A DNA stretch of 44,804 nucleotides from an uncultured Akkermansia sp. Lineage in GTDB: Bacteria > Verrucomicrobiota > Verrucomicrobiia > Verrucomicrobiales > Akkermansiaceae. Location: positions 1 through 44,804 of the forward strand of contig CANQSY010000006.1 of assembly GCA_947626635.1 (NCBI GenBank), read 5' to 3'. Below are positions 1 to 44,613 of this stretch, one piece after another. Within the stretch, counting starts at the first letter, position 1. The number at the start of each line of letters is the position of its first letter. The notes under the pieces are model-generated. The model saw only the letters and a program-made list of their open reading frames with translations, did no database searches and was not told the origin of the DNA. Made by a program: the position numbers and the translations under genes.

Positions 1-87
1 CGTAAATCGTAAATCGTAAATCGTAAATCGTAAATCGTAAATCGTAAATCGTAAATCGTAAATCGTAAATAGGCGCCTCCGGCGCCC
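1..87 (+). repeat. Dispersed intergenic repeat, copy A: ten CGTAAAT heptads plus hairpin
   Basis: Bases 1-70 are exactly ten perfect copies of CGTAAAT; the array is cut by the window edge and may be longer. A hairpin follows at once: GGCGCC (72-77), loop TCC, GGCGCC (81-86). The same heptads recur in at least seven more copies here, most followed directly by a hairpin of different sequence. No gene is visible in 1-294 apart from repeats A and B and the promoter of the next gene. Confidence 0.9.
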
Positions 88-1309: not shown

Positions 1310-1348
1310 GCTTTAGAATCAGCTTCGATTAGAAGCTGATTCTAAAGC
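1310..1348. terminator. Perfect 17-bp hairpin across the autotransporter stop codon
   Basis: GCTTTAGAATCAGCTTC (1310-1326) and GAAGCTGATTCTAAAGC (1332-1348) are exact reverse complements around the 5-nt loop GATTA. The autotransporter stop (TAA on the minus strand, 1329-1331) lies in the loop, and the arm at 1332-1348 encodes the end of its last residues FRISF. There is no strong T-run on either side, so it may be an mRNA 3'-end stabiliser or a weak bidirectional terminator rather than a classic intrinsic terminator. Confidence 0.6.
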
Positions 1349-4300
1349 CCGTTGTGGCGTCGAAACTGGTCCAGCCTTGGCGGAACTCCACGCTGCCGTC
1401 CATGAAGAAGGAGCCACCGGAGAGCCCCCCGCCGAGCGGGATGGTGATGCCGGCGCCTATCTCCACGCCCACAACGCCGACCTCTGCACCGACCATGTTG
1501 GTGACGTAGGAGCCATTGATGAAGCGCGTAGCGGCTTCGCCGCGGCGGTCGCCGGCATCGACCTTAACGAGGAGACGCGACTCGAAGAGGGCGCTGCGGT
1601 TATAGACATTCTCACCGATCAGCGACTGGAAGCGAGCGCCGGCGCCGAAGGTGAGAGTTGTGCTGTCCATATCCTCCACGCTGAGGCCGGCGTCGCTGCC
1701 GCTCTCCATGAAGCCGTCGATCTTGTTGTAGCGGACTTCCGCGTTGATGACGTACTGCATCACACTGCGCGCATCCTTCTGCAGCAGGGTGGTATAGCCT
1801 AATTCGTAGAGGGCGCCCAGAGCGTAGCCATTTGTATCGGCATCCGCCGTGTAGTTGCCGCTGCCGGTCATCACCGTGCGGTGCGTCTTGAAGTCGGCCG
1901 TACCTTCGCTGAGCACGAGAGTGTGCATCCAGCGACCGCTCATGTAACGCACAAACGCCGTGGCGTACATGGTATCCATATCGCCGCTGATGCTGTCCGC
2001 CCCGGTGCATTTGAGGTCGTTGTACATGGCCGTGAGAGCGAGACCGACCGTCGTGTTGCGCGAGATATCGGCATCCACGCCGAGTGTGCCGCCCCAGCCA
2101 TTGAGGCGGTAGCCGGGCGCAAGACCATCTGCATCCAGCTCGCGGAAGGAGCTCTCTGCGTTGACCCATGCGTGCCAGTAGGGCATATCGTCATCCGTGG
2201 CAGCCTGTGCCGCTTCATCGCCCATGGAGGTCGTGCGATTGCGGATTACGGTAAGCTGGCGGTGCATATCCTCGCCGAGGGCAGCGCTGTAGCCGGTGTA
2301 GGCTGCGCCGGACGCCGCAGCGAGCATCTTGGCAAGGTCGGCATTGTTGCCGGAGCTCAAGAGCCTCTGAGCCTCGTTCCGCAGCTTGTTGGTATCGGAA
2401 TTCGGGTTGTTGATAGCTTCTGCCGCTTTGGGATTAAAGCCGGTAAGCTCCCAGAGAGCCTTCGCTCCCTCAACGGCGTTCTGATGGGTACCCTGCACAG
2501 CCTCGGCAAGGGAGTTCGTGTCAGACTCCGTCAAATCCAGATAAATCTCACCACCTTCCGCCTTAAGAGTCGCTTCCTTCACGTGCAACCAAGCGCCGCC
2601 CACGAGCTGACTCCGATCCAGCTTGCGGCTGGTTGCAGAGTCAAGTTCGGAGGCTGCCACTCGCGTCTCCAATTCCGAGTCTCCCGCGACCTCATCGACT
2701 TCCACAGCATTCAGGTTAACACTGCCGTCGGCATATGTTCCTATCACGAACTTCTTAGAAGTGGGCGCCGAGCCGCTATCGACACGGAACGTGATATCAG
2801 CATTCTTCGCCAGGTTGAAATCCTGGAACTTCATGCCTGCATTGGCAGTATTGAACGTGAAGACAAAGGTCGTATGCGAACCGTCTTCCATGTTCACGTC
2901 ACCCATCTGCCAACCCTCATTCATGCCGCTCTCGTTCACCACGTCGAAGAGCACCTGCGCTCCGCTCTCCATGGTCACGTTCCAGTTCTCACCTCCTTTC
3001 ATGCGCGTGAACACCTGACAGAATATTCCGATACCCTTAAACGTCATCGTGCCATTGTACCCGCTGAGATCTCCTCCGTTGGTAGAGAAGCTGCCTCCGT
3101 ACAACAGGAACTCGTAATCTCCGGTACCTGTGATCGTACCGTCATTCATAATGAGACCGCAGAGGGTGCCGTTCGTCGGCCCAGCCTCCCCGCCTCCATC
3201 CGCAGTAGGAACTGCATCACCTTCGACCGCAAGGCTGTGCGCAGTTACAGACTCAGCGCCGACCTCCAACACCGTACCTTCTCCATCCAGCATGAGCAAG
3301 ACGTTGTTCAGCTTACTCCCTTTTTCCATCTTGACATTTCCCTTCACTTCTACAACACCGTTCACGTCGGAGAGGAAGGGCATATCCGCGCCAATCGCCA
3401 CACCAGCGCCGACTGTCGTAGCTTCTTCTTTCGTATCCCCGCCCACGAGTTGCAGCACGCCAAGATCATTAAGTTTCACGTTGTTGGACGCACCGTCGCT
3501 ATCCCCCACCGCATCACCTTCTACTGAGATGTCTCCGGAGACCGTAGCGGACCCTCCGTTCACCACGAGCTGAGTGTTGCCGGCATCGCCGGTGAAGGTC
3601 ACGTCGGTGAGCAGGTTCTCCTCATTTTGCAGCTCAAGAGTGCCTTGATCCATGTAGAGACCCTGTCCCTCTCTGAGGTCGAGTTTCCCGCCCATCACCG
3701 TCTTCGATCCAGCATCCTCGTGGTTGATGTGCAACTCAGCTTCTTTCACGGTGATCCCGCCGGAATACGTCATTTCTTTTTCCTTGCCGGTATTCTTGAG
3801 GGTCACCATATCGTTATCTCCACCACCGGTAATGGTCAATGTGGCATTCGCGTTGTTACCGCTCAGATTGTGCACCGTCAAGCCGTCAGCTTCCCAGTCT
3901 CCCACTGCCCTATCCTTGTCTCCTTCCGAGAAGTCGATGTTCGTGTTGCTGTCCACGATGACCTGTCCATAGTCGCCCACGCTGTCGTAGATGTTCTTAT
4001 CGCCGCTCTCCCATTTCGTGGGTTCGTCCCTATCGTTATCCTTGGAACTGACGTATGTATCACCCTCCGGAGACGGTGTATCGGATTTAGTCCATGTCAG
4101 GCAGCCGCTTTCATCGACCGTCAGGTCGCCGTAGGAATCGCCCGGATCCTTGCCATCGACGGTGAACTTAAAGTTGTTCCAACCATCGCTGAAGCCCTCC
4201 ACATCAGCAAACAACTGACCGCCGTTCTTGAATTTCTCCAGGAACTCGCTGCTGAAGTCGAGGGTGAGATCTCCACTGTTGCCGTCCATGCTGTCGAAGT

Positions 4301-7300
4301 CCAGCGTGCCGGTAAAGTCGCTCCCGAGGCTCAGCGTGCTGTCCGCACCCCATTTGAAGGAGCCTGCTGCCAAGCCATTTCCGCCCTGCACGGTCAAGCT
4401 GCCGTCCTCCGTGATCTCGAGCTCGGTGAGCGTACCGCTCACCGACCCCAGCGTACTCTTCTTTCCGCCCACCGTCAGATTCCCGCCTTCCACGCTCAGC
4501 GCGCCCTTCACCTCGGTGTCCTTCATGCTCAGGTTGCCGCCGGAACCTAGTTGCGCGCTGCCCCACGTGCCGCCGCCGTTCGCCGTCAGCGTACCGCTGC
4601 CCACGTTCACATCCCCCGTCACATTCAACTTACCGTCCGTCGTCACGCTGCTTCCGCTGCCCAAGGTCAGGTTGCCGCCGACATTCAGCTGCTTGTCGCC
4701 GAAGTCAACGGTCGTCTTCTTGTCCTTCCCCACCGTGAGGCCTCCTTTTGTCTCGAGCGTACTGCCATCGCCTTGGAAGGTGTAATCACCTCCGTCGAAC
4801 TCCACGCTGTTCGCCGTCACATCTTCCGTCATCTGCACCGTGTAATCCGACTCTGGCGTTCCCGCTACGTGGACGTCCACCCCGGCGGCATCTTCCGGCC
4901 AAACCACACTCGGATCCTCACCCGATGATGTACTCCATTTCATGTTTTCGCCACCCCAAGTCAACGTGCCGCCGCCCTCCTCACCTGTCCAGTAAAGGTC
5001 GGGGTTCTCCGGCGCCTCCCACGTGAGTTTTCCTTCATTATTCAGTCCGAAGTTACCGTACCTGTCTTCATTCACCGTTTGCCCATTGATAGTGAACGTG
5101 AAATAATCCTTCCAATTCGTGACATCCCCCCAGCCACTGAAGAGCTGCCAGTTGCCACTGCGGAGTTTATCCAGCATCTCCGAGGAGAGGTCGATCGTGA
5201 GCAGGTTACCATCTGTGGGCTTCGTCAGCGTCGCATCCGTGAGGTTGATCGTGAGCTGTGAATCGATGTCCAGCGTAGCTCCCTCACCCCAAGTGAGTCC
5301 GCTCGTGATACCTAACGACTGCTCTCCCTCGCCGCCGATATGCACCGTCGAACCGGCGCCCAGCGTGAGCTTCGTGAGAGAGCCGGTGACTCCTTCATCG
5401 AAGTTCACCGTAGCGTTGTCCCCGATTTCTATCGCCTTGCTGAGCGTCGCCGCTCCTTTGAACGTCATCGTCCCGGCCGCCACCTTGAAGTCCTTATCCA
5501 TGGTCGCGTCGTCACTGATCGTCAGATCACCCGCAATGCCATAGCCGGTGTTAGCATTGAAGGTCACTCCCGCATATTTGCCCGTGTATGTAGCCCAGTC
5601 CAGCGAACTATCCTGACCCGTGCTGTCCCACAGCAGGTACACCGTCTCCGGCGCGCCGGAGACGTCCGCGCGGTTCAGGGTGAGCGTGCCCTTGCTGATT
5701 TGAGTAAGGGAATTGAACGTAAGATCCCCGCCAAGGTTCAGTGTGGGACTAGCACTTGAGGTCATAGTTATTTGCAGCGTCTTAATGCTGCCAACACTTC
5801 CGTTCGCACCGGTGATGGTGAGGTTCGTCCCACCTGCGAGATCCAGCGTTCCGGCTCCGGAAAGAGAACCATCAATCGTAGAATTTGTGGCTCCGGTGAA
5901 ACGGAGGGCTCCTTCCTCGACCTCTACATCGCCATGGATTGTAACCGTTCCTGCGCCGATAACCTGCACTTTACTGCCGGCCTTCTTGAGGTTGATCCTC
6001 GCGTTTTTCTCGCCGAGGGTGAATTCACTCGTCCATGCAAACTTGTTCGCGGTCGGAGTCAGGGTCAGCGTAAGAGCATCTTTGGTCTCCTCACCACCCG
6101 AGGTCTGCTTGATGGTGATCTTCTCCGCAGGTGTAACTCCATCTCGAGGCCAATCGCCTGCCCCAAAATCACCGAAGCTCAAGTCTCCACCCATTTCAAC
6201 GGTGCCGGAATCACCGACACCAACGGTCAGTTGTTTCACCGTCCCGCCCGCGGCGAGTTGCAACGTGCCGCCGGAGAGAGTAACGCTCGAGAGAGTAACA
6301 GAGTTGCTGAAGCCCTGCGTGCCGCTCTGGACAGTGAGCGCCAGCGAATCGGCTACCGTTCCCTCAAACGTGCCGCCGGTTCCGCTCACCGTGATAGAGC
6401 CTCCGACCGTACCGCTGCCGGTCAACCCACCCACCGTGAGAGTGTCGCCCGTGAGCGTTCCGCCCACGTCCACCACGCCCGCGGTCGAACCGGAGAGAGT
6501 TTGGTCGCCCTTGCCGAGGGTGAGTGTCGCCTCGGCGTTCCCTGAGTTGTCAAGTTCGGCCGTGATGGAGCCGTTTAGCGTGCCGCCGTTCTCGCCGAGC
6601 GTGAGTTTCTTGTCGGTGCCCAGTGTGTTATCCCCCGTCAGGTTGAGCGTACCGCCATCCAGCGTGATGCCGCCGGTGAAGGACGTTCCATCGAGAGCCT
6701 TGTCGAGCGTCATGTCCCCCTTCACGGTCAGATCCGCCGAACCTTCCAGCGCACCCTTCACCTCCGTCGTCACTTCAAACGTGGTGGCGTCATTGAGCGT
6801 CAACGTGCCGTACACGACAAGTGTTTGCCCGTTGCCCTTGAAGGTGTACGTCGTTGAGTCGTCGTCTACCTTCCCAACCGTCAGGGAGTTAACACTAACT
6901 TTATTATCGGTATCGCCGGAAACGGTGACATCAACTGTACCCGTATCGCTCTCCCCTTGCAAGACGACGTCCTTGCTCGCGTTCACATCGCCGGAGTCTG
7001 TATCCCAACCAAGAGCTTTCCCACCGCTGATGCTGTCGCCCAACGTCACGCTCCCTGTCTCCCCTCTCCATGTGTAGGTATCCAACGTGGGTTCTTCAGT
7101 CTCTCCCCATGTCAGTGTCCCGTCAGAGGTCAGCGTGAGGTTGCTGTACGTGCCGTCGTCATTCGCGACCGTTACGTTAAAGTTGCCCGAGAAGTCATAG
7201 CCTTCTCCCCAAGTGAAGAACTTGTAACTGTTGTCCTCTGCGTTGAGCCCGTCCAAGAAGGCTTTGTCCAGGGTGATGGTGAGTTTACCACTGAGGCTCG

Positions 7301-10300
7301 TCACGCCTGAAAGGTCAATTCCCAAACCTTCTCCCGCCGTACTGCTCACGTCAATCGAGGCGCCTTCCGTCCAGCTGAACGAGGAACCGAGGGTGATCTG
7401 CTGGCTGCCGGAGAGCTTCAGCTTGCTGCCATCCAACACAAATCCGCCGAAGCTGTACGCAGTAGTGCTGCCTTGCAATTCCAACGTCCCGCCGCCCGTC
7501 ACCTTGAACGCCTGCGTGACTGCCCCGCCTTCCGTGAAGGTCTTCGTATCGCTGCTGGCTACCTTCACACCGATACCGACATTGCTCCCGATAGTCACTC
7601 CACTGCTCATTTTGTACTGAGCGTAGAAATTGTCCAGAGTGGCCGAGCCAGTATCACCCACCTTGGACATCAAAACGTACACGATGCTGTTTTCCGGAGA
7701 CGCATTTGCATTTTCGATTGTTCCTGAGCCTGAACCGGGATCTGCCGCAGTTGCATTGCTATACAGGCAGAAACCAATCTCCCCAACCACGATGTCGTTC
7801 TTCAACTTCAGAGTGTTCGTCTTCCCATCATTAGAGAAACGAATACTGGCAATGTCGCTACCTTCTCCGTTAATGGTCAAGGTTGTATCAAGAAGGTAAA
7901 GGTTGCCATCTCCATACACCTTGCCGTCAATTTGAGCATTGTTTGACAAGGTGAGACGCAGCACACCGGCTTGAATGTTGACATCGCCCGAAATCGAGAT
8001 ATCCCCTTGAGCAATGCTTTGGTGATAGTTTCCTTTCTTTACCAAATTGATGCGATGAGAGCTATCACCCAGTTTCAAACCTCCCCAGAGCAGCGTCTCT
8101 CCTCTGCGTTCAACCCCTTCCGTTCCAACCATCCCCTCGCAGATCGTGAAGTCAATCGTCTCAGAAGCTTCAGACAGTATGGTGTAATTGGAGCCAGTCT
8201 TGCTTCCGTTCCACTCACCGCCGGAGATACCCTTCTTGGCAGTGAACGCACCTCCAAGAGTCAATGTTGCGTCAGGATTGAATTTCACTTCACCATCAAT
8301 GCTACTTGCCCCCTTCACCTTCAAGGTCGTGGACTCTGCAAGTTCGACGTTTACGGTGAGCCCTTCCGTCTCCGCCTTTTGCGTCAAACTCCCAAGCGTG
8401 CCGGTGTTGGCAAACTTGAGCGTCACGTTGCCGGTGCCGTCCACCGTGAGGGCGCCGCTCTCACCGGTCACGCTCTCGAACGTCGTCGTGGAACCGGAAG
8501 CGAGCTTCAGGGTGCCTCCATTCTCCGTCACGTCCAATTTCTTCACCGTCGCGGCAGCATCCTTTAATTCGACAGTTCCTCCGTCCAAGCCCAAGGTTCC
8601 TTGGCCTGCATAGCCTTGAATGGAAACCGTGACGTTCTGACCCACGACGAAGGAGCTTTCCGCAGAGGAACCGAAGGAATTCGTGATGCTGAGCGTGGCG
8701 TCATCGTCCTTTCCGGTGACGTTGTAGGTGGCCGCTCCCTCGATAGTAAGCGAAAGAGCCTCTACAACGCCGCCTACCTTCACGCTATGATCCCCGTCTG
8801 CTGCCGCAAACTTCACAGAAGCTTTGTTCTCGAATGTCTTATCGTCCTTCCACCCGGTGCCGGTACTCGTACTCGTGTCCCAGATCAGCTCGTTTGTGTC
8901 TTCGTAGACGTACTCTCCGGCGAGCGAAGAGAGGGTCAGCGTGCCATCGGCATTCAGCTCCAGTTTGAACGCTTCCTGATCGTACCCGGTAAAGACGAGC
9001 CTGCCGGACTGCACCAGAGAGGTGAAGTTTTTATTGCCTCCGGTAAACAGCTCGTAGGTGGTACTTCCTGACCAATCCAACCCCGTTAGGTCAATGGTCA
9101 GTGTATGACCATCGCTCACCACAATGCTCCCGATGTCCAATTTCACGGTGCCCGACACGCCCAATGTGGCATCGCAGTTGGTGTTCAAGGTAAGCGTCGT
9201 AATAGACAAGGGATTCGCGCCGCCAAGCTTCAGCAATGAACCATTGTTCAGAGTGAGGGAAGTGAGCTTGTTGTACGTAGTTTCTTCTTCCGATGCCTTG
9301 ACACTGCCCCAAGTCATTTGCGTGTTCTCGCCCAGCGTGAGCGAAGCGCCATCGTTCACCGTCGTCTCGCCGGAAATGGTGACCGAACTTCCACTGAAGG
9401 TGACGACTCCCTTGAGTTCCAGCGCACCGGCCGTAACGGTACCGGCTTTGAGCTCCACACCATCGACGAGAAGTGTGCTGGCATTGGTAGTCGTAAGCGT
9501 GATATTGCCTGTAAACGATCGGAAGTTTTCCCCGGAGAATTCCAACACATTGCCTCCGCTTCCTGCCGTGATCAGGAAATTCCCTTTCCACCCGCTCATG
9601 TCTCCTGTGAATTTCCAATGCTGACCATGAATCGTCCCCTCGACCATCTTGAAGTCGCTACTTTCAGCGTCCTCAGCCGTCGAGAATTTGCCGTTGAATA
9701 CGTAGGGATTTGTTCGGTCGGAGAACCCATTGTTGATCGACAGATCTGTCATCAACACCACGTCAGCCTCAACGGTTACATCAGCCCCCTCTACATTGGG
9801 ATCGGGGAAATAGAGCACCTCGGTCTGTTGAATGATGACAGTTTTGCCTTTCGCGTTGTCAGACGACTTCAAAAAGCTGTCCCACTCACTTGTATTATGC
9901 ACTATCGGCTCGACAGCCGTCCAGCTCAGTTGACCGGTCTCGCTCAATTTGAGGCCTCTGAGATTTTTCCCATTTACATAGATATTGAAGAAATCATCCC
10001 ACTCCTTCCCCTGAGTGTCGAGAGCATCCCACAGCGTTCTAAAGTGATCTGAATTAAAGAGCTGGTACGTCGTCTTGCTTCCATCCTGATCCCAAACGTC
10101 GTATCCCGTCAGCGTAATGCTGAGTTTGCCGTCCGCATCCAACACTAAGCTCGTGAAGTCCAGATTCCCACCGTCTTGCGTCATGGTGAGCGTCAGCATA
10201 CCACCGTTCGCCGCATGCAGCGTCGTACCCTTCAACGTTCCACTGTTTACCTCCAAGTTTGCATTCGCCCCCAACGTGAGTTCTGTCAGCTCGCCTGTGA

Positions 10301-13300
10301 ACTCGTCGAGTTTCAACTTCCCTCCCGTCACCTTCAGGGTTCCTGCCGCAGCCGTCAACCCACCCGTTATCGTGCTTGTTTCAGTTGAAGAAACCTCCAA
10401 CACGCCGCCGTTCAATGTGACACTCCCGGAGATAGAACTATCGCCATAGAGCTCCATTTGTCCCGCGCTTACCGTCAACGCTCCTGCCATTGTGAGACCG
10501 TTGATGCGCTGCGTACCCTTGCCGGACTTGACAAGGTTAACCCCGTCCAGTATATTCAGCGAGAATTTGAAATCTTTTGTGGCCGACTCTGCTACATCGA
10601 CGGTGAGGTTAACAGCATCTTGAGTATCAGCGGATTTTTTGATAGTACGCCCCCGATCATAGGCCGTATTATCGCCGTCCGTTGTCAATCCGCCGAATTT
10701 TGCGTTCGCCCCCAAGGCTACCTTTGCCCCATAAAGACTCATCGTCAACTCCCCCCTCATATCAGCCCCTCCTTTCAGGTTAACCCAATGAGAACCGTCT
10801 TCATCACTTTCCGCATCAGCGGTTGTCGCAGCATTGACAACAAGCAGCGAACCGTCTCCCACGATTTGCTTTTCAAAGGTAAAGTTGAGACCTTGATGAG
10901 TAGAATCTCCGTCAAGCTTCACTGTTCCCCCCGCTATTTTAAAGCTTTCCGCAATGGTTGTCTCCTCGGTAAATGTAAGAGTCCCGTTGCCCGTTATGCC
11001 GTAACCCACGTTTTCCCCATATTCGGCGCCCGTTTTAAAATTTTGCATAAAATCGCTCCCTTCTACCGCCTCCTGTCCCGCATCAATCTTCCTCAGGATG
11101 TACACGGTCGACGCACTTGCATCCTCGGATCGGCTGAAGGTGCGTCCGCTCCCCCCACCATTCTCCATATCGTCCACGATGAGGTCAGCGCCAAGCGCGA
11201 TGTTTGCTCCCCAGCCGGAACGCAACACGCCTGCCAATGTTCCTCCTTTTTTCAGAGTGAGCGTACCGTACACCCCGAGCTTCCCACTACCGCTGAATTC
11301 ACCCTCCACTGTGAGCGAGGCGCTACCGTCCAAGTTGAGCCCCTTCGTGTTGTTATAATTTTCATCAAGTTCTCCGCCCACGAATTTGAAATTACCACCC
11401 ACTGTCAGACTCTTGCCTGTTCCTTTGACTTCCAGCAGAGCATCTTGCTCTACTGTCACATCTCCATTGATGGCGAGATTGGCGGCATTACCCAAAGACG
11501 CTTTACCCCCACTCACCTTCAAACCTCCCTCCCATGGCGTCTCTGTGTTGTCACCGGTCAAAGTCAGCTCCCCGGTTCCTGTCTTACCCAGCCCTGTGCC
11601 CGCGCCAAACGTCACCTTGGTTGCGTCCAGATCTGTTCCCTCGGATTTCACCCAATACGTAGTTTCTTCCTCAGACCCCTTCGCCGAGAAGCTCAGCGTC
11701 CCGGTCATCGACCCAACGGTCAAGTCCCCGCCGAGCGTGACAGTCAGCCCCGTGTCAGTGCCGTTCATCGCCCCGGTCACCGTGCCGCCATTCCCGAGCG
11801 TCAGGTTACCAACACCCGTCACAGAGCCGAAACTCACCGTGCCGGTGCTGAACTCCGCAGCGGTTCCGCTTCCTGCCAGCGTTAACGCACCGCTCACCGT
11901 CACGTTCGTAGTGAATGTCGCCGTTGCTCCATCCGACACCATGAGGTCTCCACCCACCGTGAGAGTCTCAGTGCCTGTGGGTACAAAATTCCAAGTCGCC
12001 ACACCGCCACCGATCGACATATCCTTGGTCTGAATGTTCGCCCCAAGCGTCACCGTATGTGGTTCCCCGCCGTCACTATCCACAAAATGCACATTTTGAC
12101 CATTCGACCAGTCCTTCGACTCACCGCCCTCCTCAGTCGTGCCGAACTGGACTCCCTCGTCTCCACCCCACGTCAGATTCCCTGTCTCTCCGTCTCCTCC
12201 GCCCCAATACAAATCATCACTGAGCGGCGTGGGCGCTTTTTCCCATATCAGTTTGCCATTCTCATCGAGCTGAACCTGATCTTTCAGGTCATTCGCCCCA
12301 TCAGCTCCACCCCAGAAGGTAATCCTGTCCTTGATAGACGAAAGCCAAGCACTATAACCACCGGTGAAGAGTGTCAATCCATCGGCATGCTGCGACACCC
12401 ACTCATCACTCCAGTCCGTCAGAACGATCTTCAGCTCGCCGGTGCCGTCAATCGTCAGAGCCGTGATGTCGAGGAAGCCGCCATCGAAGTTGTTCCCGAC
12501 AGTAAGTTTAATCGTCCCTGTGCTGGTACCGAGAGCGAGTGTGCCTGCCTTCATCTTTGCCCCGGAACCCAAAGCGATGGACGTATTGTTACCCATCGTG
12601 ATCGTGCCTTGGAATCCGGTTGCATCCGTTCCACCCGTCAGGATGAGTCCGGCGCCCTCGAGCAACTCGAGGCTGGCAGAAGACGCTCCACTCAGTTTGT
12701 CCACAACGGTGAATTCACTGTCGTCAATCTTCAACGCTCCGGCTGTCACCTTCAGGTTCTGGATCTTCCAGTGGGTGCCGACAGAGCTTTCCTCATACTC
12801 TTTGAGTGTAAGGTTATTGGAACCTTTCTTTTCCAAGCCAACGTTGTCAAACTGCAACGAACCTTTGCCATTGCCCAAGTCGTGGCGATGCCAAGAAATT
12901 TCTTTGTCGCTGGTAAAATCCAACACGAGGTTCACCGGACCTCCTGTACTAACGTTTGCGATTTTGAGGAATTTGTTCTCATTATCATCTCGATTGAAAA
13001 GCCAATCGTGAAGAATCAAATCCGCTCCGAGGTTCAGGGTTACGCCCCATCCCAAATCCATGCTCTTTAACTCGCCGCCCTTGTTCAAGGTGATAATACA
13101 GGTCGCAACATCACCCCCTCTACCAATCGCCTTCAGCTCCCCTGTAGTCCCACCGCTGATCTCTTCCGTAAAGGTATATTGGTGTTGGTCGAGCGTCAGT
13201 TTCCCTGCCAGCGTTGTCTTGCCGACCACAGTCATATTCATATCTACCTTCACCTCTGCGCCGGTGCCAATATCCAGCGTCCCGGTCGCGGTAATACTCG

Positions 13301-15971
13301 TTCCGCCCTGGAAGGTATATTTCGCACCATCCGATACCGTGATGTTCTGCGCACTCACCGCCCCAGACACCGTGATATCCACGTTTGATGTGGCTCCTGT
13401 GGCGGAGAAGGTAATGTCGTGGCTCGCACTCTCCTGCTCTTTCCCATCGAAACTCGCTGAACTCCACGTCCCTGCGCCCATATCCCAGGTCCAATCCTGA
13501 TCTATCTCTCCCCAAACAAGGTTACCCCCATCGACATGAAGGTTCTTGTACGTGCCGACACTATCATCCGCTACGGAGAACGTGAAGAATTTGTCCCAAT
13601 CCTCGTTCCAATGGGTGAAGAGCTTGATAGTGTTGGATGCCCCATCACCCATGAAGTCCGAGGTCAACACAATAGAAAGCACTTTACCTTCGATGCCCTG
13701 CAACGCAGTTTCGGTGAGCGTAATCTGCTGCCCATTCGCATTGAGCTTGATCTTGCTCCCTGTTTCAAAACTTAACGCCCCCGTGAGCTCCAGGTTGCCG
13801 GACTTCACATCAAGGGTGGACTTCACATCAAGGGTGGAAGTGGCTCCAAGGGTAAGATCCTTGAACTTTCCGCTCAGCGTCGCCACCTCCAGCGTGCCGG
13901 AGGAGACCTTCAATCCCGCGTTCCCATCACCATTCAAGGTCCCGGAGATTGTGCCGCCTTCTCCCAATTCCAAAGTTTCACCCGTCGTCAGCGACAGGAC
14001 AAGACCTGTAGCCACCGTGATGCTCTTAGCTTTGCCGCCTTTCGTAATAGTGAACGTACGCGTTCCATCCTTCAATTGGCTTCCTGAAGTGTCCCCTGTG
14101 ACGGACAGGGAGTAATTTTCTGCCTTCAAACTCCCGATCGAGAAGGAACCAACCGCTGTTCCATCCTGCAGGAAAGAAATTCCCGAATCCTCCATGAGAG
14201 TGAGGTTCCCTGTCGTCGTCACGCTTTTATTGAAAGACAGAGCGGTCATTGAGAGACCTGTAAAGTGTTTTTGGTTATACCTGTGCACTCCGCTTGCTCC
14301 TATGACGAAGTCACTCTCGAGATTATCTACATTGTTTTCATTGTCATTCCACGGTCCGAAGTTCAACTGAGCTCCCTTTATGTAAATTGTCTTTGGCCCC
14401 TTGTTACCGAAGCTTCCTCTTTCTTGGAATTCAGCGTTGCCCGTGAGGTAAAGAGAAAGTAGCCCTTCCAGCAGACCCGAGCTGCCGAGTTTCACTTCTG
14501 TTGCGTTAGCTGACTCCGAACCATTCGAGCCCGTGCCATTGAGGCGTAGGTTGACGCTTTCTGGGGTGGAAATTGTGATTGCCGCCAAAGCGCTGTTTAT
14601 GTCGATGTTTGTATTGCCCTCCACGCTCGCTCCACCAGTGTTCGTGGCTACCTTGTCATAGACGATATTGGTAAAGTCATCCGGTTGGTTATCGGATTTA
14701 ATACTAAGCCAGCCGTTTTTGCCCCCCTCATCAGTGATAAGTGACGCTGTGAACCCGTCGCTCACTCCCGTAAACGTCAGGCTCTCGCTCCAATCTTCTT
14801 TGTGAGAGGAAAGCCACGTACTAAATTGAGTATCGCCGAATATATCAAACTCACCGGTGGAGAACCCACTCAGGTTAATCGTCAGCTTGCCTCCCGTAAT
14901 TTCGGAAAAGTCCAGCTTTGCAGAATTCCCATAGACTATTTCAATAACGGACGAATCGCCGGAACTCACCGTAATCGCTCCTGCTGTCAGCGTCCCGCCC
15001 GTTAGGATGAACTGAGATTCCGCTTCCAGCGTCAGTCCGTTACTCAGCGTAAGTGAACCATTCTGTAATTCAACTTTGGCATCTTCTGCCACGATCAATT
15101 TCGTTAAGCTGCTAGTGTGGTCTGTGCCGCTCGTTTCCCCGAACACAACGCGTCCGGAAGCAGTTGATCCGGATATCGTTGACACCGTGAGCGTATAAGC
15201 CCCAGTTACACCCCCTTTGAACTGGAAACCGCAGTTAGCGCCAAACGTTGTCACTCTGGCATCCTCTTGCAAGGTTAACTTTCCGCTAGTTTTTACCCAA
15301 AGGTTGCCACCATCGTCTCCCACCTTCAGGACAGCATTTTGCGCGGCGTTGGGGTGAGCTCTACCGTCATCGTCAAAAATTTTGGAACAGGTTCCAGTAC
15401 CGATGATGAAGTCCGTCTCCAAAGCATCGTAACCCGAACTGTTACCATTCCATATCCCAAAGTTCAACTGAACACCGTTAACATACAACTCCTTCGGTCC
15501 CTTCGTTCCAAAAGCTCCCGTATCCTGCACAATGCCCTGTCCTGTCAACCACAGCGACTTTAGGCCGTCAAATTTCGTGTTTGATGCTCCACTACCCCCA
15601 CCAAGCTTGATCTCTGTTGTATCTGCAATGCCGCTAAAGTTTATCTTCAGATTCAACTGATCCAAGTCCAACTCCTCCCCTGATTTCGGCAGTTTGTTGG
15701 TCCAATAACTATCCTGTACCCCTTCAGCGGTCGTACAATCTACTTCAACACTGCTATTGGCATCAAACTGTTGTTCCGATGCTTTTGTGTACTCCTGCAC
15801 ATCACTTGGTCCCGAGAATTCCGCACTCGCCCTCTGGCTCGCGATGAGGAACACCGCGGCGATGCCTGAGGCGGAGGCGATGGTGGTGGGGATGGAGGCA
15901 GCGGGCAGAGCTACCGCGGCAAGGCAAGCCAGGAGAGCCTTGCGAAGACCCGAAGGAAGATGCAGTTTCAT
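1329..15971 (-). CDS. Giant autotransporter with beta-strand-repeat passenger and C-terminal barrel
   Basis: A 4880-residue predicted type V secretion protein. The start is ATG at 15971 (MKLHLPSGLRKALLACLA, a basic plus hydrophobic signal sequence), not an in-frame ATG at 16100 that lies upstream of the predicted promoter. The passenger is rich in Gly, Thr and Ser and is built of LTxGGGTLxxTG-like beta-helix strands, as in autotransporter-associated beta-strand repeat proteins. Eight long modules end with a recurring signature (LTIxL...LF...W...F.F...GxLxW) near residues 424, 820, 1242, 2014, 2345, 2957, 3652 and 3959. An Ala-rich helical linker near 4500-4590 leads into the barrel (about 4594-4880), which ends in the aromatic motif FRISF, as expected for BAM insertion. 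The ligand is unknown; adhesion or surface coating is inference. The upstream region carries a candidate invertible promoter. Confidence 0.93.
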   Translation of the reverse strand: MKLHLPSGLRKALLACLAAVALPAASIPTTIASASGIAAVFLIASQRASAEFSGPSDVQEYTKASEQQFDANSSVEVDCTTAEGVQDSYWTNKLPKSGEELDLDQLNLKINFSGIADTTEIKLGGGSGASNTKFDGLKSLWLTGQGIVQDTGAFGTKGPKELYVNGVQLNFGIWNGNSSGYDALETDFIIGTGTCSKIFDDDGRAHPNAAQNAVLKVGDDGGNLWVKTSGKLTLQEDARVTTFGANCGFQFKGGVTGAYTLTVSTISGSTASGRVVFGETSGTDHTSSLTKLIVAEDAKVELQNGSLTLSNGLTLEAESQFILTGGTLTAGAITVSSGDSSVIEIVYGNSAKLDFSEITGGKLTINLSGFSTGEFDIFGDTQFSTWLSSHKEDWSESLTFTGVSDGFTASLITDEGGKNGWLSIKSDNQPDDFTNIVYDKVATNTGGASVEGNTNIDINSALAAITISTPESVNLRLNGTGSNGSESANATEVKLGSSGLLEGLLSLYLTGNAEFQERGSFGNKGPKTIYIKGAQLNFGPWNDNENNVDNLESDFVIGASGVHRYNQKHFTGLSMTALSFNKSVTTTGNLTLMEDSGISFLQDGTAVGSFSIGSLKAENYSLSVTGDTSGSQLKDGTRTFTITKGGKAKSITVATGLVLSLTTGETLELGEGGTISGTLNGDGNAGLKVSSGTLEVATLSGKFKDLTLGATSTLDVKSTLDVKSGNLELTGALSFETGSKIKLNANGQQITLTETALQGIEGKVLSIVLTSDFMGDGASNTIKLFTHWNEDWDKFFTFSVADDSVGTYKNLHVDGGNLVWGEIDQDWTWDMGAGTWSSASFDGKEQESASHDITFSATGATSNVDITVSGAVSAQNITVSDGAKYTFQGGTSITATGTLDIGTGAEVKVDMNMTVVGKTTLAGKLTLDQHQYTFTEEISGGTTGELKAIGRGGDVATCIITLNKGGELKSMDLGWGVTLNLGADLILHDWLFNRDDNENKFLKIANVSTGGPVNLVLDFTSDKEISWHRHDLGNGKGSLQFDNVGLEKKGSNNLTLKEYEESSVGTHWKIQNLKVTAGALKIDDSEFTVVDKLSGASSASLELLEGAGLILTGGTDATGFQGTITMGNNTSIALGSGAKMKAGTLALGTSTGTIKLTVGNNFDGGFLDITALTIDGTGELKIVLTDWSDEWVSQHADGLTLFTGGYSAWLSSIKDRITFWGGADGANDLKDQVQLDENGKLIWEKAPTPLSDDLYWGGGDGETGNLTWGGDEGVQFGTTEEGGESKDWSNGQNVHFVDSDGGEPHTVTLGANIQTKDMSIGGGVATWNFVPTGTETLTVGGDLMVSDGATATFTTNVTVSGALTLAGSGTAAEFSTGTVSFGSVTGVGNLTLGNGGTVTGAMNGTDTGLTVTLGGDLTVGSMTGTLSFSAKGSEEETTYWVKSEGTDLDATKVTFGAGTGLGKTGTGELTLTGDNTETPWEGGLKVSGGKASLGNAANLAINGDVTVEQDALLEVKGTGKSLTVGGNFKFVGGELDENYNNTKGLNLDGSASLTVEGEFSGSGKLGVYGTLTLKKGGTLAGVLRSGWGANIALGADLIVDDMENGGGSGRTFSRSEDASASTVYILRKIDAGQEAVEGSDFMQNFKTGAEYGENVGYGITGNGTLTFTEETTIAESFKIAGGTVKLDGDSTHQGLNFTFEKQIVGDGSLLVVNAATTADAESDEDGSHWVNLKGGADMRGELTMSLYGAKVALGANAKFGGLTTDGDNTAYDRGRTIKKSADTQDAVNLTVDVAESATKDFKFSLNILDGVNLVKSGKGTQRINGLTMAGALTVSAGQMELYGDSSISGSVTLNGGVLEVSSTETSTITGGLTAAAGTLKVTGGKLKLDEFTGELTELTLGANANLEVNSGTLKGTTLHAANGGMLTLTMTQDGGNLDFTSLVLDADGKLSITLTGYDVWDQDGSKTTYQLFNSDHFRTLWDALDTQGKEWDDFFNIYVNGKNLRGLKLSETGQLSWTAVEPIVHNTSEWDSFLKSSDNAKGKTVIIQQTEVLYFPDPNVEGADVTVEADVVLMTDLSINNGFSDRTNPYVFNGKFSTAEDAESSDFKMVEGTIHGQHWKFTGDMSGWKGNFLITAGSGGNVLEFSGENFRSFTGNITLTTTNASTLLVDGVELKAGTVTAGALELKGVVTFSGSSVTISGETTVNDGASLTLGENTQMTWGSVKASEEETTYNKLTSLTLNNGSLLKLGGANPLSITTLTLNTNCDATLGVSGTVKLDIGSIVVSDGHTLTIDLTGLDWSGSTTYELFTGGNKNFTSLVQSGRLVFTGYDQEAFKLELNADGTLTLSSLAGEYVYEDTNELIWDTSTSTGTGWKDDKTFENKASVKFAAADGDHSVKVGGVVEALSLTIEGAATYNVTGKDDDATLSITNSFGSSAESSFVVGQNVTVSIQGYAGQGTLGLDGGTVELKDAAATVKKLDVTENGGTLKLASGSTTTFESVTGESGALTVDGTGNVTLKFANTGTLGSLTQKAETEGLTVNVELAESTTLKVKGASSIDGEVKFNPDATLTLGGAFTAKKGISGGEWNGSKTGSNYTILSEASETIDFTICEGMVGTEGVERRGETLLWGGLKLGDSSHRINLVKKGNYHQSIAQGDISISGDVNIQAGVLRLTLSNNAQIDGKVYGDGNLYLLDTTLTINGEGSDIASIRFSNDGKTNTLKLKNDIVVGEIGFCLYSNATAADPGSGSGTIENANASPENSIVYVLMSKVGDTGSATLDNFYAQYKMSSGVTIGSNVGIGVKVASSDTKTFTEGGAVTQAFKVTGGGTLELQGSTTAYSFGGFVLDGSKLKLSGSQQITLGSSFSWTEGASIDVSSTAGEGLGIDLSGVTSLSGKLTITLDKAFLDGLNAEDNSYKFFTWGEGYDFSGNFNVTVANDDGTYSNLTLTSDGTLTWGETEEPTLDTYTWRGETGSVTLGDSISGGKALGWDTDSGDVNASKDVVLQGESDTGTVDVTVSGDTDNKVSVNSLTVGKVDDDSTTYTFKGNGQTLVVYGTLTLNDATTFEVTTEVKGALEGSADLTVKGDMTLDKALDGTSFTGGITLDGGTLNLTGDNTLGTDKKLTLGENGGTLNGSITAELDNSGNAEATLTLGKGDQTLSGSTAGVVDVGGTLTGDTLTVGGLTGSGTVGGSITVSGTGGTFEGTVADSLALTVQSGTQGFSNSVTLSSVTLSGGTLQLAAGGTVKQLTVGVGDSGTVEMGGDLSFGDFGAGDWPRDGVTPAEKITIKQTSGGEETKDALTLTLTPTANKFAWTSEFTLGEKNARINLKKAGSKVQVIGAGTVTIHGDVEVEEGALRFTGATNSTIDGSLSGAGTLDLAGGTNLTITGANGSVGSIKTLQITMTSSASPTLNLGGDLTFNSLTQISKGTLTLNRADVSGAPETVYLLWDSTGQDSSLDWATYTGKYAGVTFNANTGYGIAGDLTISDDATMDKDFKVAAGTMTFKGAATLSKAIEIGDNATVNFDEGVTGSLTKLTLGAGSTVHIGGEGEQSLGITSGLTWGEGATLDIDSQLTINLTDATLTKPTDGNLLTIDLSSEMLDKLRSGNWQLFSGWGDVTNWKDYFTFTINGQTVNEDRYGNFGLNNEGKLTWEAPENPDLYWTGEEGGGTLTWGGENMKWSTSSGEDPSVVWPEDAAGVDVHVAGTPESDYTVQMTEDVTANSVEFDGGDYTFQGDGSTLETKGGLTVGKDKKTTVDFGDKQLNVGGNLTLGSGSSVTTDGKLNVTGDVNVGSGTLTANGGGTWGSAQLGSGGNLSMKDTEVKGALSVEGGNLTVGGKKSTLGSVSGTLTELEITEDGSLTVQGGNGLAAGSFKWGADSTLSLGSDFTGTLDFDSMDGNSGDLTLDFSSEFLEKFKNGGQLFADVEGFSDGWNNFKFTVDGKDPGDSYGDLTVDESGCLTWTKSDTPSPEGDTYVSSKDNDRDEPTKWESGDKNIYDSVGDYGQVIVDSNTNIDFSEGDKDRAVGDWEADGLTVHNLSGNNANATLTITGGGDNDMVTLKNTGKEKEMTYSGGITVKEAELHINHEDAGSKTVMGGKLDLREGQGLYMDQGTLELQNEENLLTDVTFTGDAGNTQLVVNGGSATVSGDISVEGDAVGDSDGASNNVKLNDLGVLQLVGGDTKEEATTVGAGVAIGADMPFLSDVNGVVEVKGNVKMEKGSKLNNVLLMLDGEGTVLEVGAESVTAHSLAVEGDAVPTADGGGEAGPTNGTLCGLIMNDGTITGTGDYEFLLYGGSFSTNGGDLSGYNGTMTFKGIGIFCQVFTRMKGGENWNVTMESGAQVLFDVVNESGMNEGWQMGDVNMEDGSHTTFVFTFNTANAGMKFQDFNLAKNADITFRVDSGSAPTSKKFVIGTYADGSVNLNAVEVDEVAGDSELETRVAASELDSATSRKLDRSQLVGGAWLHVKEATLKAEGGEIYLDLTESDTNSLAEAVQGTHQNAVEGAKALWELTGFNPKAAEAINNPNSDTNKLRNEAQRLLSSGNNADLAKMLAAASGAAYTGYSAALGEDMHRQLTVIRNRTTSMGDEAAQAATDDDMPYWHAWVNAESSFRELDADGLAPGYRLNGWGGTLGVDADISRNTTVGLALTAMYNDLKCTGADSISGDMDTMYATAFVRYMSGRWMHTLVLSEGTADFKTHRTVMTGSGNYTADADTNGYALGALYELGYTTLLQKDARSVMQYVINAEVRYNKIDGFMESGSDAGLSVEDMDSTTLTFGAGARFQSLIGENVYNRSALFESRLLVKVDAGDRRGEAATRFINGSYVTNMVGAEVGVVGVEIGAGITIPLGGGLSGGSFFMDGSVEFRQGWTSFDATTGFRISF
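13801..13836 (-). repeat. 18-bp in-frame tandem duplication inside the autotransporter
   Basis: The 18-mer GACTTCACATCAAGGGTG occurs twice in direct succession (13801-13818, 13819-13836). It adds six residues and gives the duplicated peptide TLDVKS TLDVKS. Exact identity suggests a recent replication-slippage event in a repeat-rich coding region. Confidence 0.85.
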
Positions 15972-16057: not shown

Positions 16058-16087
16058 AGTATACCTCTTTCCCAATGAGAAGTGCAA
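16058..16087 (-). promoter_or_regulatory. Promoter of the giant autotransporter, spacer formed by an inverted repeat
   Basis: Read on the minus strand: TTGCAC (16087-16082), 18-bp spacer, TATACT (16063-16058). The -10 is strong. The -35 keeps the TTG shared by the other promoters predicted here (TTGACA, TTGCCT, TTGCGC) but is otherwise weak. Transcription would start near 16051, about 80 nt before the ATG. Seventeen of the 18 spacer bases are one arm of the inverted repeat at 16065-16246. Confidence 0.6.
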
Positions 16088-16246
16088 GCAAAAATTTCAC
16101 ATTTCTTTGAGAATGGACTTTTTATAACAAAAGCAGATAGCAAAAGAACGATATGCCGAATTGGGTTATTTCCAATCATCGACGGGTCAAATAATTATCG
16201 ACTAAACAATTACGAATTACCTCCGGATATTCTCATTGGGAAAGAG
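16065..16246. other. Candidate invertible DNA segment (phase-variable promoter)
   Basis: CTCTTTCCCAATGAGAA (16065-16081) and its exact reverse complement TTCTCATTGGGAAAGAG (16230-16246) bound a 148-bp AT-rich segment (16082-16229). The left arm fills the space between the -10 and -35 boxes of the autotransporter promoter, so flipping the segment would replace the -35 hexamer TTGCAC by CGGATA while leaving the -10 in place. No convincing gene lies in 15972-16397, the AT-richest stretch of the window. Invertible promoters bounded by inverted repeats are well known for surface structures of gut Bacteroides. No recombinase gene is in the window, so the switch is inference; the repeat itself is seen directly. 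Confidence 0.6.
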
Positions 16247-16363: not shown

Positions 16364-16391
16364 TTGACATTTGCGGGAATCCAACTAATAT
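16364..16391 (+). promoter_or_regulatory. Promoter of proS, predicted leaderless
   Basis: TTGACA (16364-16369), 16-bp spacer, TAATAT (16386-16391). The ATG at 16398 begins 6 nt after the -10 box, which puts the expected transcription start on or next to the start codon. Confidence 0.75.
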
Positions 16392-16397
16392 CAGCTC

Positions 16398-17918
16398 ATG
16401 GCACAGCAGAATGCAATAACGCCCACGCGCGCGCAGGATTTTCCGGAGTGGTACCAGCAGGTTATCAAGGCGGCGGATATGGCGGAAAACTCGGAGGTAC
16501 GCGGTTGTATGGTGATTAAGCCGTGGGGCTACGCAATTTGGGAGCTGATCCAGCAGCAGCTGGACGCAGAATTCAAGCGCACGGGACACAAAAACGCCTA
16601 CTTCCCCTTGCTCATTCCCATCAGCTACCTCGAGAAGGAAGCAGAACACGCCGAGGGTTTCGCCACGGAGTGCGCCGTGGTCACCCACCACCGGCTCGAG
16701 GCTAAAAAGGACGCCGAAACCGGGAAAACGCGCATGATCCCCTCCGGCGAGCTGACGGACAAATATGTCATCCGCCCGACGTCGGAGACTGTGATTGGCG
16801 CGGCATTCTCGCGCTGGCTGGAATCTTACCGCGACCTGCCCTTCAAGGTGAACCAATGGTGCAACGTGATGCGCTGGGAGATGCGTCCGCGCATTTTTCT
16901 GCGCACGACGGAGTTCCTCTGGCAGGAGGGACACACCGCCCACGAAACGCGCGAGGAGGCCGAACAGGAAACGGCGACCATGCACAAAGTTTACGAGGAC
17001 TTCCAGCGCGACGTCCTCGCCATCGCTTCCATCCCGGGAGAAAAGACCGAGCACGAGCGCTTCCCGGGGGCAGTGCGCACCTACACGGTGGAAGCCATGG
17101 TGCAGGACCGCAAGGCGATTCAGGCCGGCACCTCCCACTTCCTCGGTCAGAATTTTGCCAAGGCTCAGAACATTGTCTTTGCCGGACGCGACAACGAGAG
17201 GCAGTTCGCCTGGACCACTTCCTGGGGCGTCTCCACCCGCATGATCGGCACGCTCATCATGGCGCACGCGGATGATGATGGTCTCGTGTGTCCGCCGCGC
17301 GTGGCGCCGCTGCAGGTGGTCATCATCCCGGTGACGCCGAAGCCGGAGAGTCGGGAGAGCATTCTGGCGCACTGCCGGGAGCTGGCGCAGAAGCTCGCCG
17401 CACAGCAATTTCACGGTATGCCGCTGCGCGTTGAGGTGGACGAGAGGGACCTGAACGGAGGCACAAAGAAATGGGAGTGGATCAAGAAGGGCGTGCCTGT
17501 GCGCCTCGAAATCGGTCCGAAGGATCTCGAAAAGGGAAGCGTGTGTCTCGCGCGGCGGGATCACCCCGGCACGGATAAGATCTTCATCCCGGAGGCAGAT
17601 TTCCTGACCGGCGCCGTGCAGCTGCTGGAGGAAATTCAGGACGCGCTGCTGGAGCGCCAGCGCTCCTTCCGCGATGCGCACATCCGCCCGTGCAGCGACC
17701 TGGAAGAGTTCAAGAAGAACTTCGGCGGCGAGGGGGACGCCGACTGGCTGCTCTGTCCCTGGGACGGCACGCCGGAGCAGGAGGAAGAGCTGGGCAAGAG
17801 CCTGCGCATCTCCATCCGCTGCATTCCTCTGGGCGAGATGGGAGAGGGTCCGTCCGCTCCCTGCATCCTTACGGGTCGACCCACCACGCGCCGCGTCCTC
17901 TGGGCACGCAGCTACTAA
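16398..17918 (+). CDS. proS: Prolyl-tRNA synthetase, archaeal/eukaryotic-type
   Basis: ProRS charges tRNA-Pro with proline in the cytoplasm. The 506-residue length, the lack of the bacterial-type editing insertion, and the end RVLWARSY with its C-terminal tyrosine fit the type 3 (archaeal/eukaryotic-like) form. Class II synthetase landmarks are RPTSETVIG near residue 130, the FLRTTEFLWQEGHTAH motif 2 region near 170, and GTSHFLGQNFAKA followed by HADDDGLVCPPRVAPLQVV (motif 3 and the start of the anticodon-binding domain). The start at 16398 directly follows a strong promoter. nadE starts 17 nt downstream, so the two are probably co-transcribed. Identification is secure. The type 3 form is common in several bacterial phyla and does not by itself prove recent transfer. 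Confidence 0.96.
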   Translation: MAQQNAITPTRAQDFPEWYQQVIKAADMAENSEVRGCMVIKPWGYAIWELIQQQLDAEFKRTGHKNAYFPLLIPISYLEKEAEHAEGFATECAVVTHHRLEAKKDAETGKTRMIPSGELTDKYVIRPTSETVIGAAFSRWLESYRDLPFKVNQWCNVMRWEMRPRIFLRTTEFLWQEGHTAHETREEAEQETATMHKVYEDFQRDVLAIASIPGEKTEHERFPGAVRTYTVEAMVQDRKAIQAGTSHFLGQNFAKAQNIVFAGRDNERQFAWTTSWGVSTRMIGTLIMAHADDDGLVCPPRVAPLQVVIIPVTPKPESRESILAHCRELAQKLAAQQFHGMPLRVEVDERDLNGGTKKWEWIKKGVPVRLEIGPKDLEKGSVCLARRDHPGTDKIFIPEADFLTGAVQLLEEIQDALLERQRSFRDAHIRPCSDLEEFKKNFGGEGDADWLLCPWDGTPEQEEELGKSLRISIRCIPLGEMGEGPSAPCILTGRPTTRRVLWARSY

Positions 17919-42563: not shown

Positions 42564-42960
42564 GCACACGTGTCCCAATAAAATCTTCTCCTCGATCAAT
42601 GAACCCATATCCCATGCGTTTCTAAGGATGAACGAAGTATGCCGGCAAAGCCGCTCCATAAGCGTAGCATTGTCCTTATGGAAGAGGCCCAATAAAAATG
42701 AGAATTATAATTGACTTGCCCGCCGGAATACTTCTCTCCTCCCCACGCAAAGCGTGCTAGCTTCCCAAATCGTAAATCGTAATTCGTAAATCGTAAATAG
42801 GCGCCGATAGGCGCCCAGGGCCCTCGGGCGCTTTGACTCCTCGCGCTTTGCGCGCTAGCATCCCAAATCGTAAATCGTAAATCGTAAATAACCAACAACT
42901 TATGCTACATGATACACCATTAACCACTTATTGAGGGTGTTTTTCTTGGGACACGTGTGC
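42564..42960. other. Second long inverted-repeat pair: paired operators or invertible segment
   Basis: GCACACGTGTCCCAA (42564-42578) and its exact reverse complement TTGGGACACGTGTGC (42946-42960) extend inward to 19 of 20 matches (42564-42583 and 42941-42960). Read toward each flanking gene, the same motif precedes both -35 boxes, 18 and 28 bp away, so it may be a shared regulator site; its core ACACGTGT is itself palindromic. The pair also bounds 357 bp that could invert. Within 42584-42940 I see only repeat copies G1/G2 and a short CCATAAG/CTTATGG inverted repeat (about 42658-42682), and no gene. Confidence 0.6.
42767..42889 (+). repeat. Dispersed intergenic repeat, copies G1 and G2
   Basis: G1: heptad tract (42767-42798) followed by the hairpin GGCGCC (42800-42805), loop GATA, GGCGCC (42810-42815). 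G2: heptad tract 42865-42889 without a hairpin. Each is preceded by a GC-rich inverted sequence and a CTAGC(T/A)TCCC stretch, in place of the GAATTCCC box of other copies. The bases after the G1 hairpin (CCAGGGCCCTCGGGCGCTTTG) resemble those after copy A. Confidence 0.8.
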
Positions 42961-44537: not shown

Positions 44538-44613
44538 GGAACGCGCGCAGCGCGCGAATTCCCCACATCGTAAATCGTAAATCGTAATTCGTAAATAGGC
44601 GCCGCCAGGCGCC
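44538..44613 (+). repeat. Dispersed intergenic repeat, copy E
   Basis: GC palindrome box (44538-44564), heptad tract (44565-44596), hairpin GGCGCC (44598-44603), loop GCCA, GGCGCC (44608-44613). This is the most complete copy in the window. The 44470-44804 stretch holds only copies E and F, the possible terminator and a possible start of the next transcript. Confidence 0.85.

Follow-up and report, generated by a model that had tools for sequence, protein, structure and literature searches.

A probable invertible promoter upstream of a 4880-residue autotransporter gene in an uncultured Akkermansia, and a candidate recombinase encoded away from it

The promoter of a gene for a 4880-residue autotransporter in an uncultured Akkermansia sp. 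is very probably a phase-variation switch (inverton), in which a tyrosine recombinase would invert the segment at positions 16082-16229 and so turn the autotransporter ON or OFF. The window, by which we mean the whole analysed stretch of 44,804 nucleotides, lies on contig C6 of a 2.16 Mb assembly (155 contigs, 98.8% complete), and the closest named relatives of its signal region are nearly all uncultured Akkermansia MAGs from the rabbit gut. Paralogous promoters of the same genome and related promoters in other genomes support a promoter-inversion switch at this position; from these comparisons we infer flipping at the window locus itself, its ON/OFF effect and the identity of the enzyme.

Inverted arms and promoter boxes at the window locus

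On the forward strand, the two arms CTCTTTCCCAATGAGAA (16065-16081) and TTCTCATTGGGAAAGAG (16230-16246) are perfect complements over 17/17 bp with 148 bp between them, exactly as a preliminary description, made from the letters alone, had reported. That description held a chance match of this length to be very unlikely, and 60 simulated windows (first-order Markov) contained no inverted pair of at least 15 bp within 300 bp, the expected number of pairs at 14 bp being 0.03 in such simulations of the window. The minus strand reads, in succession, distal arm, a 148-bp segment ending in TTGCAC, proximal arm, a single G, TATACT and then the gene, whose ATG is found 93 nt past the proximal arm (Table 1). 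The arm had been said to occupy the whole gap between the -10 and -35 boxes, which holds but for this one G. As in Akkermansia invertons, short inverted repeats here border a segment that lies between genes and precedes one for a surface protein. The assembly holds 16082-16229 in a single orientation; opposite orientations are seen among paralogs of the same genome.

Inversion would bring CGGATA (16224-16229) to the -35 position in place of TTGCAC and leave the -10 unmoved, an exchange that had been anticipated and that is borne out by the sequence layout. We also agree that the -35 is weak, a point against the proposed switch: it is so by E. coli standards, and a scan for the sigma-70 consensus does not report the window promoter. 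The autotransporter assignment stands as well, since the C-terminus of the protein matches the Pfam Autotransporter beta-domain (2.3e-29); this match comes from a scan of the C-terminus, the domain having been missed when the entire 4880-residue protein was scanned at once. On the other side of the segment, proS is probably not switched by inversion, because it has a promoter-like match of its own outside the segment and there is no TATACT at the distal arm.

A reversed heptad match at 16208, which had been said to fit a past flip but perhaps to be due to chance, is imperfect and uninformative, and heptad-repeat orientation was dropped as evidence of flipping. The GTAAATC heptad itself occurs in tandem and dispersed form at window positions 1-67, 42768-42886 and 44570-44586, and is also frequent between genes in other Akkermansia MAGs.

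Table 1. Features of the window in and around the putative switch (positions in the window)
Feature	Position	Strand	Remarks
Switched gene (putative), 4880-aa autotransporter	1329..15971	-	Signal MKLHLPSGLRKALLACLAAV, C-terminal beta-domain; ATG at 15971
-10 hexamer TATACT	16058..16063	-	Fixed, outside the segment; AAAGAGRTATACT common to paralogous promoters
Gene-proximal arm	16065..16081	-	TTCTCATTGGGAAAGAG on the minus strand; takes 17/18 bases between -35 and -10
-35 hexamer TTGCAC	16082..16087	-	Within the segment; part of a genus-conserved ..TTTTGCTTGC block
Invertible segment (putative), 148 bp	16082..16229	-	Assembly orientation read as ON; paralogs show opposite orientations
Gene-distal arm	16230..16246	-	CTCTTTCCCAATGAGAA on the minus strand; exact inverted copy of the proximal arm
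proS promoter-like site TTGACA-16-TAATAT	16364..16391	+	Outside the segment; consensus match only, chance level 1.0 per region
Divergent prolyl-tRNA synthetase gene (proS)	16398..17918	+	No TATACT beside the distal arm

Paralogous promoters and two arm codes

The window promoter region recurs before three further autotransporter genes of the same genome (on C9, C40 and C7), all of which retain AAAGAGATATACT and an inverted partner at the 167-bp spacing of the window. In C7, a conserved TTGC(G/A)C is turned towards the -10, and its complement is located just inside the far arm in C9 and C40. When one of the two is inverted, the segments of C7 and C40 have an identity of 0.95, as opposed to 0.49 in the same orientation, and their downstream 100 bp are identical (1.00); likewise, two loci with CGGATT-type arms from one other Akkermansia MAG (L111 and L114) compare at 0.97 inverted versus 0.51 as written. 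Such patterns are what site-specific inversion would leave behind, and we regard the opposite segments of C7 and C40 as coming close to direct proof that flipping occurs in this genome, albeit at loci other than that of the window. The preliminary description proposed to look for the opposite orientation in related genomes; opposite orientations are seen between two loci of another species (L111/L114) and between two paralogs of the same genome (C7/C40), and its scenario of a promoter-inversion switch that moves the -35 only gains support from the paralogs and relatives, in which 43 distinct pairs share the layout.

Across all fetched loci, from the window genome and its relatives, we recorded CTCTTT-type pairs 61 times, with 43 distinct strong pairs, of which 32 have a centre spacing of 165-170 bp. 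The AAAGAGRTATACT core was a far better query than the window arm, which, with up to two to three mismatches allowed, returned mostly chance matches. TTG[CA] is positioned at the -10 end only in 16 of the 61 records, at the far end only in another 16, at both ends in four and at neither in 25; many of these last carry a TTGACA-, TGGACA- or TGTACA-like hexamer at one end. The genes downstream include many autotransporters with an MKLHLP signal as well as MKKTI-type secreted proteins, and other N-termini, assigned by eye and not by family search, resemble sugar-nucleotide, glycosyl- and acyltransferase genes. Helical phasing of the spacing gave a similar concentration for periods of 10.5-12.5, owing to one dominant cluster, and nothing is claimed from it.

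More complicated arrangements are also evident. In several cases (G022:C56, G008:C25 and G014:C8), two divergent genes are separated by a single segment that is flanked by TATACT at either side, which would give either/or expression of the divergent genes. At L081 (3078-3336) and L082 (4933-5132), a single segment with TATACT at both ends separates divergent autotransporter genes, an arrangement that suggests mutually exclusive expression of two autotransporters. At least three CTCTTT-type sites precede one autotransporter gene at L117 (61-357) and L118 (2611-2911), and their blocks appear in different orientations, possibly representing a multi-segment shuffling promoter. The window's own genome has two CTCTTT-type inverted pairs next to each other between divergent genes at L156 (G000:C70, about 6943-7596).

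The window-type arms follow the code TCTCWTT NNN AAWGAGA, the outer bases being common across loci and the three central bases varying between pairs while matching within a pair. For A. muciniphila, the inverton arms are CGGATT..AATCCG (Jiang et al. 2019, as cited in PMC13343947 and PMC11892184). Among 76 Akkermansia genomes, CGGATTNNNAATCCG is found 36-84 times in twelve, 22 and 88 times in two more, and 0-8 times per genome in the window's group; conversely, TCTCWTTNNNAAWGAGA is found 5-43 times in the window's group and is lacking (zero counts) in the CGGATT-rich genomes. The window genome itself is nearly devoid of CGGATT..AATCCG (1 palindromic site versus 36-84 in muciniphila-type genomes). 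Since the CGGATT loci examined (L111, L114, L172, L183, L198) also place the arm between a -35-like block (TTGC or TTGACA) and a -10 (TATACT or TATAAT), the two arm codes are, on this comparison, the same promoter layout with a different putative recombination site.

A candidate recombinase and competing explanations

The genome contains 12 integrase matches, none of them on contig C6, so there is no recombinase gene beside the switch, in line with what had been remarked for the window. A search of the genome for tyrosine or serine recombinases had been advised; it yields the former, but the latter are absent, with no PF00239 match in the genome compared to matches in 10 of 14 control genomes. 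The tyrosine recombinases comprise XerC- and XerD-like proteins and a genus-wide family of proteins of about 335 aa with at least five full-length members in this genome, for which a tree was calculated from 105 members fetched from 20 genomes. A short contig (L084, G000:C111) has three low-GC tyrosine recombinases in a row, which were set aside as probably foreign to this genome (mobile element or contamination).

One single-copy member of the family, C108 (G000:C108:2808-3830), is encoded away from the targets. Every one of the 23 genomes that have two or more TCTCWTTNNNAAWGAGA sites also has a C108 ortholog, and among the 38 genomes lacking such an ortholog none reaches two sites (Fisher p 9e-10, a value that ignores relatedness and should be read with caution, the genomes being related and not independent events). 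Fourteen genomes have an ortholog of at least 68% identity, and each of these carries 5-43 TCTCWTT sites; in 24 more the ortholog has 49-59% identity, and nine of those 24 have at least two sites. The 15 genomes that have such a distant ortholog and no sites count against the assignment; samples of 100-120 kb from three of the 15 contained no matching pairs, and a search for inverted pairs over 400 kb from four genomes whose orthologs are distant revealed no new motif. The C108 gene is intact, and its product retains Arg, Lys, Arg, His and Tyr at the catalytic positions. The structure predicted for it (pLDDT 84.7) matches Tn1549 Int, lambda Int and Cre. In place of the usual HxxR box, every aligned family member has DxxR, aspartate (D287 in C108) replacing the first histidine. 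As an intact tyrosine recombinase that is distributed in step with the sites, the C108 ortholog is, from genome comparison, the rather probable recombinase acting on the window arms. For the other arm code, G083 has 74 CGGATT sites and a single family member, of the L268 type, whose orthologs of at least 91% identity are single-copy in exactly twelve genomes, the same twelve that have 36-84 CGGATT sites; a gene that is sister to this member is present in G027 (88 sites) and G013 (22).

The recombinase genes have repeat pairs of their own. An inverted pair (arms of at least 12 bp, 100-300 bp apart) ends near the start codon in 52 of the 95 family members with full upstream sequence. The corresponding numbers are 8 of 2000 for random segments and 2 of 279 for the regions upstream of other ORFs at the same loci. 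Arm similarity tracks protein similarity (Mantel rho 0.46, 0/1000 permutations), and ATATGATTTCAAATCATAT, ACAGGATTNNNAATCCTGT and CAGCATTCATAATGCTG are subfamily-specific arms, each confined to one subfamily; examples with a pair just upstream of the recombinase start are L258, L274, L285 and L294. These putative switches may control the recombinase genes themselves. The putative master types C108 and L268 have no inverted pair of their own, and neither does the C15 type.

In the mechanism we propose, the recombinase, most likely the C108 ortholog encoded away from its targets, would pair the two 17-bp arms and invert 16082-16229, with the -10 staying beside the gene and the -35 riding on the segment. 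In the assembled orientation, where TTGCAC faces TATACT at 18 bp, the autotransporter would be ON; after inversion, with CGGATA at the -35 position, it would be OFF. The outer arm bases TCTCWTT..AAWGAGA would act as recombinase-binding half-sites common to the loci, and the pair-specific three middle bases should restrict recombination to partner arms. For the genus, we lean slightly towards a scenario in which the recombinase family has diverged in its site codes, a single-copy master member (C108 type for TCTCWTT, L268 type for CGGATT) flips dozens of dispersed promoters of surface genes, many paralogs are phase-variable themselves through an invertible element of their own with a cognate arm, and clades have exchanged codes while keeping the layout.

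Near-palindromic arms that overlap a promoter and keep an almost constant distance of 167 bp would also be fitting for a looping repressor, and the arms could then be an operator pair for a DNA-binding regulator or a looping element, with no recombination involved. We consider this very unlikely, as near-identical paralogs have their inter-arm segments in opposite orientations, and the three central bases, though different from pair to pair, are the same in the two arms of any one pair, as crossover regions require. The single orientation in the assembly would also be expected from a former invertible promoter now locked as a relic; arms that are perfect over 17 bp, showing no decay, together with an intact candidate recombinase gene make this an improbable reading. 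A chance inverted repeat is of negligible probability, the expectation being far below 1 per window and the layout being repeated at dozens of loci.

Recombination at the arms could also be the work of an enzyme other than C108, be it XerC/XerD, a C15-type paralog or a self-switched paralog, and to this we assign a real if lesser probability, given that genes for XerC, XerD and at least five members of the family are present in the genome and that the C15 type, too, is without an upstream repeat pair. XerC and XerD, however, are general housekeeping enzymes, which one would not expect to follow a single arm motif. The C15 type is absent among the fetched members of G020 and G025 despite 15 sites in each (G020:C64, which is broken, and G025:C147, a fragment, were outside the fetched set), and the C90-, C67- and C10b-type genes of the window genome fall into subfamilies that carry other arm motifs.

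Relation to known switches

Invertible promoters are already known in Akkermansia, where they affect capsule and colonisation, and the cps1 capsule switch of A. muciniphila is an inverton (PMC13343947). The window shares with the A. muciniphila invertons the genus, short arms about 160-175 bp apart and surface genes including autotransporters, as well as the -35/arm/-10 layout seen at the five CGGATT loci above; it differs in its arms, TCTCWTT/AAWGAGA and not CGGATT/AATCCG, and these are found in other species. No recombinase is named for the A. muciniphila sites in PMC13343947 and PMC11892184, and in the openly licensed papers searched we found neither a report naming the enzyme that flips Akkermansia invertons nor the arm code, the clade-wise exchange, the likely enzyme or the repeat pairs at recombinase genes described here. 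A proximity-based survey (PMC11892184) would miss a recombinase encoded away from its sites. The present comparison offers one candidate recombinase gene per clade and a second arm code, and such matched recombinase-site pairs would be useful for testing how these enzymes choose DNA.

Switches of the fim type in E. coli have dedicated nearby recombinases and invert the whole promoter. In them, as proposed for the window, a surface protein is controlled by a promoter element that a tyrosine recombinase turns round, and they include the switch of the autotransporter UpaE (PMC6083910), whereas the window has no adjoining recombinase gene and the -35 side alone would move. The serine invertase switches of the Hin/Gin kind are different again, the window genome being without a serine recombinase. 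In Bacteroides fragilis, Mpi inverts many dispersed capsule promoters and is encoded away from most of its targets; the layout proposed here likewise has one recombinase for many dispersed surface-gene promoters, mostly distant from the enzyme gene. The phylum and the arm motif are different, and the whole promoter is within the segment there, as opposed to the -35 side only here. Mpi-mediated inversion of capsule promoters is among the examples cited in PMC11892184. The Bacteroides comparison drawn in the preliminary description is a functional likeness only; the close relatives of the window's putative switch are the Akkermansia invertons.
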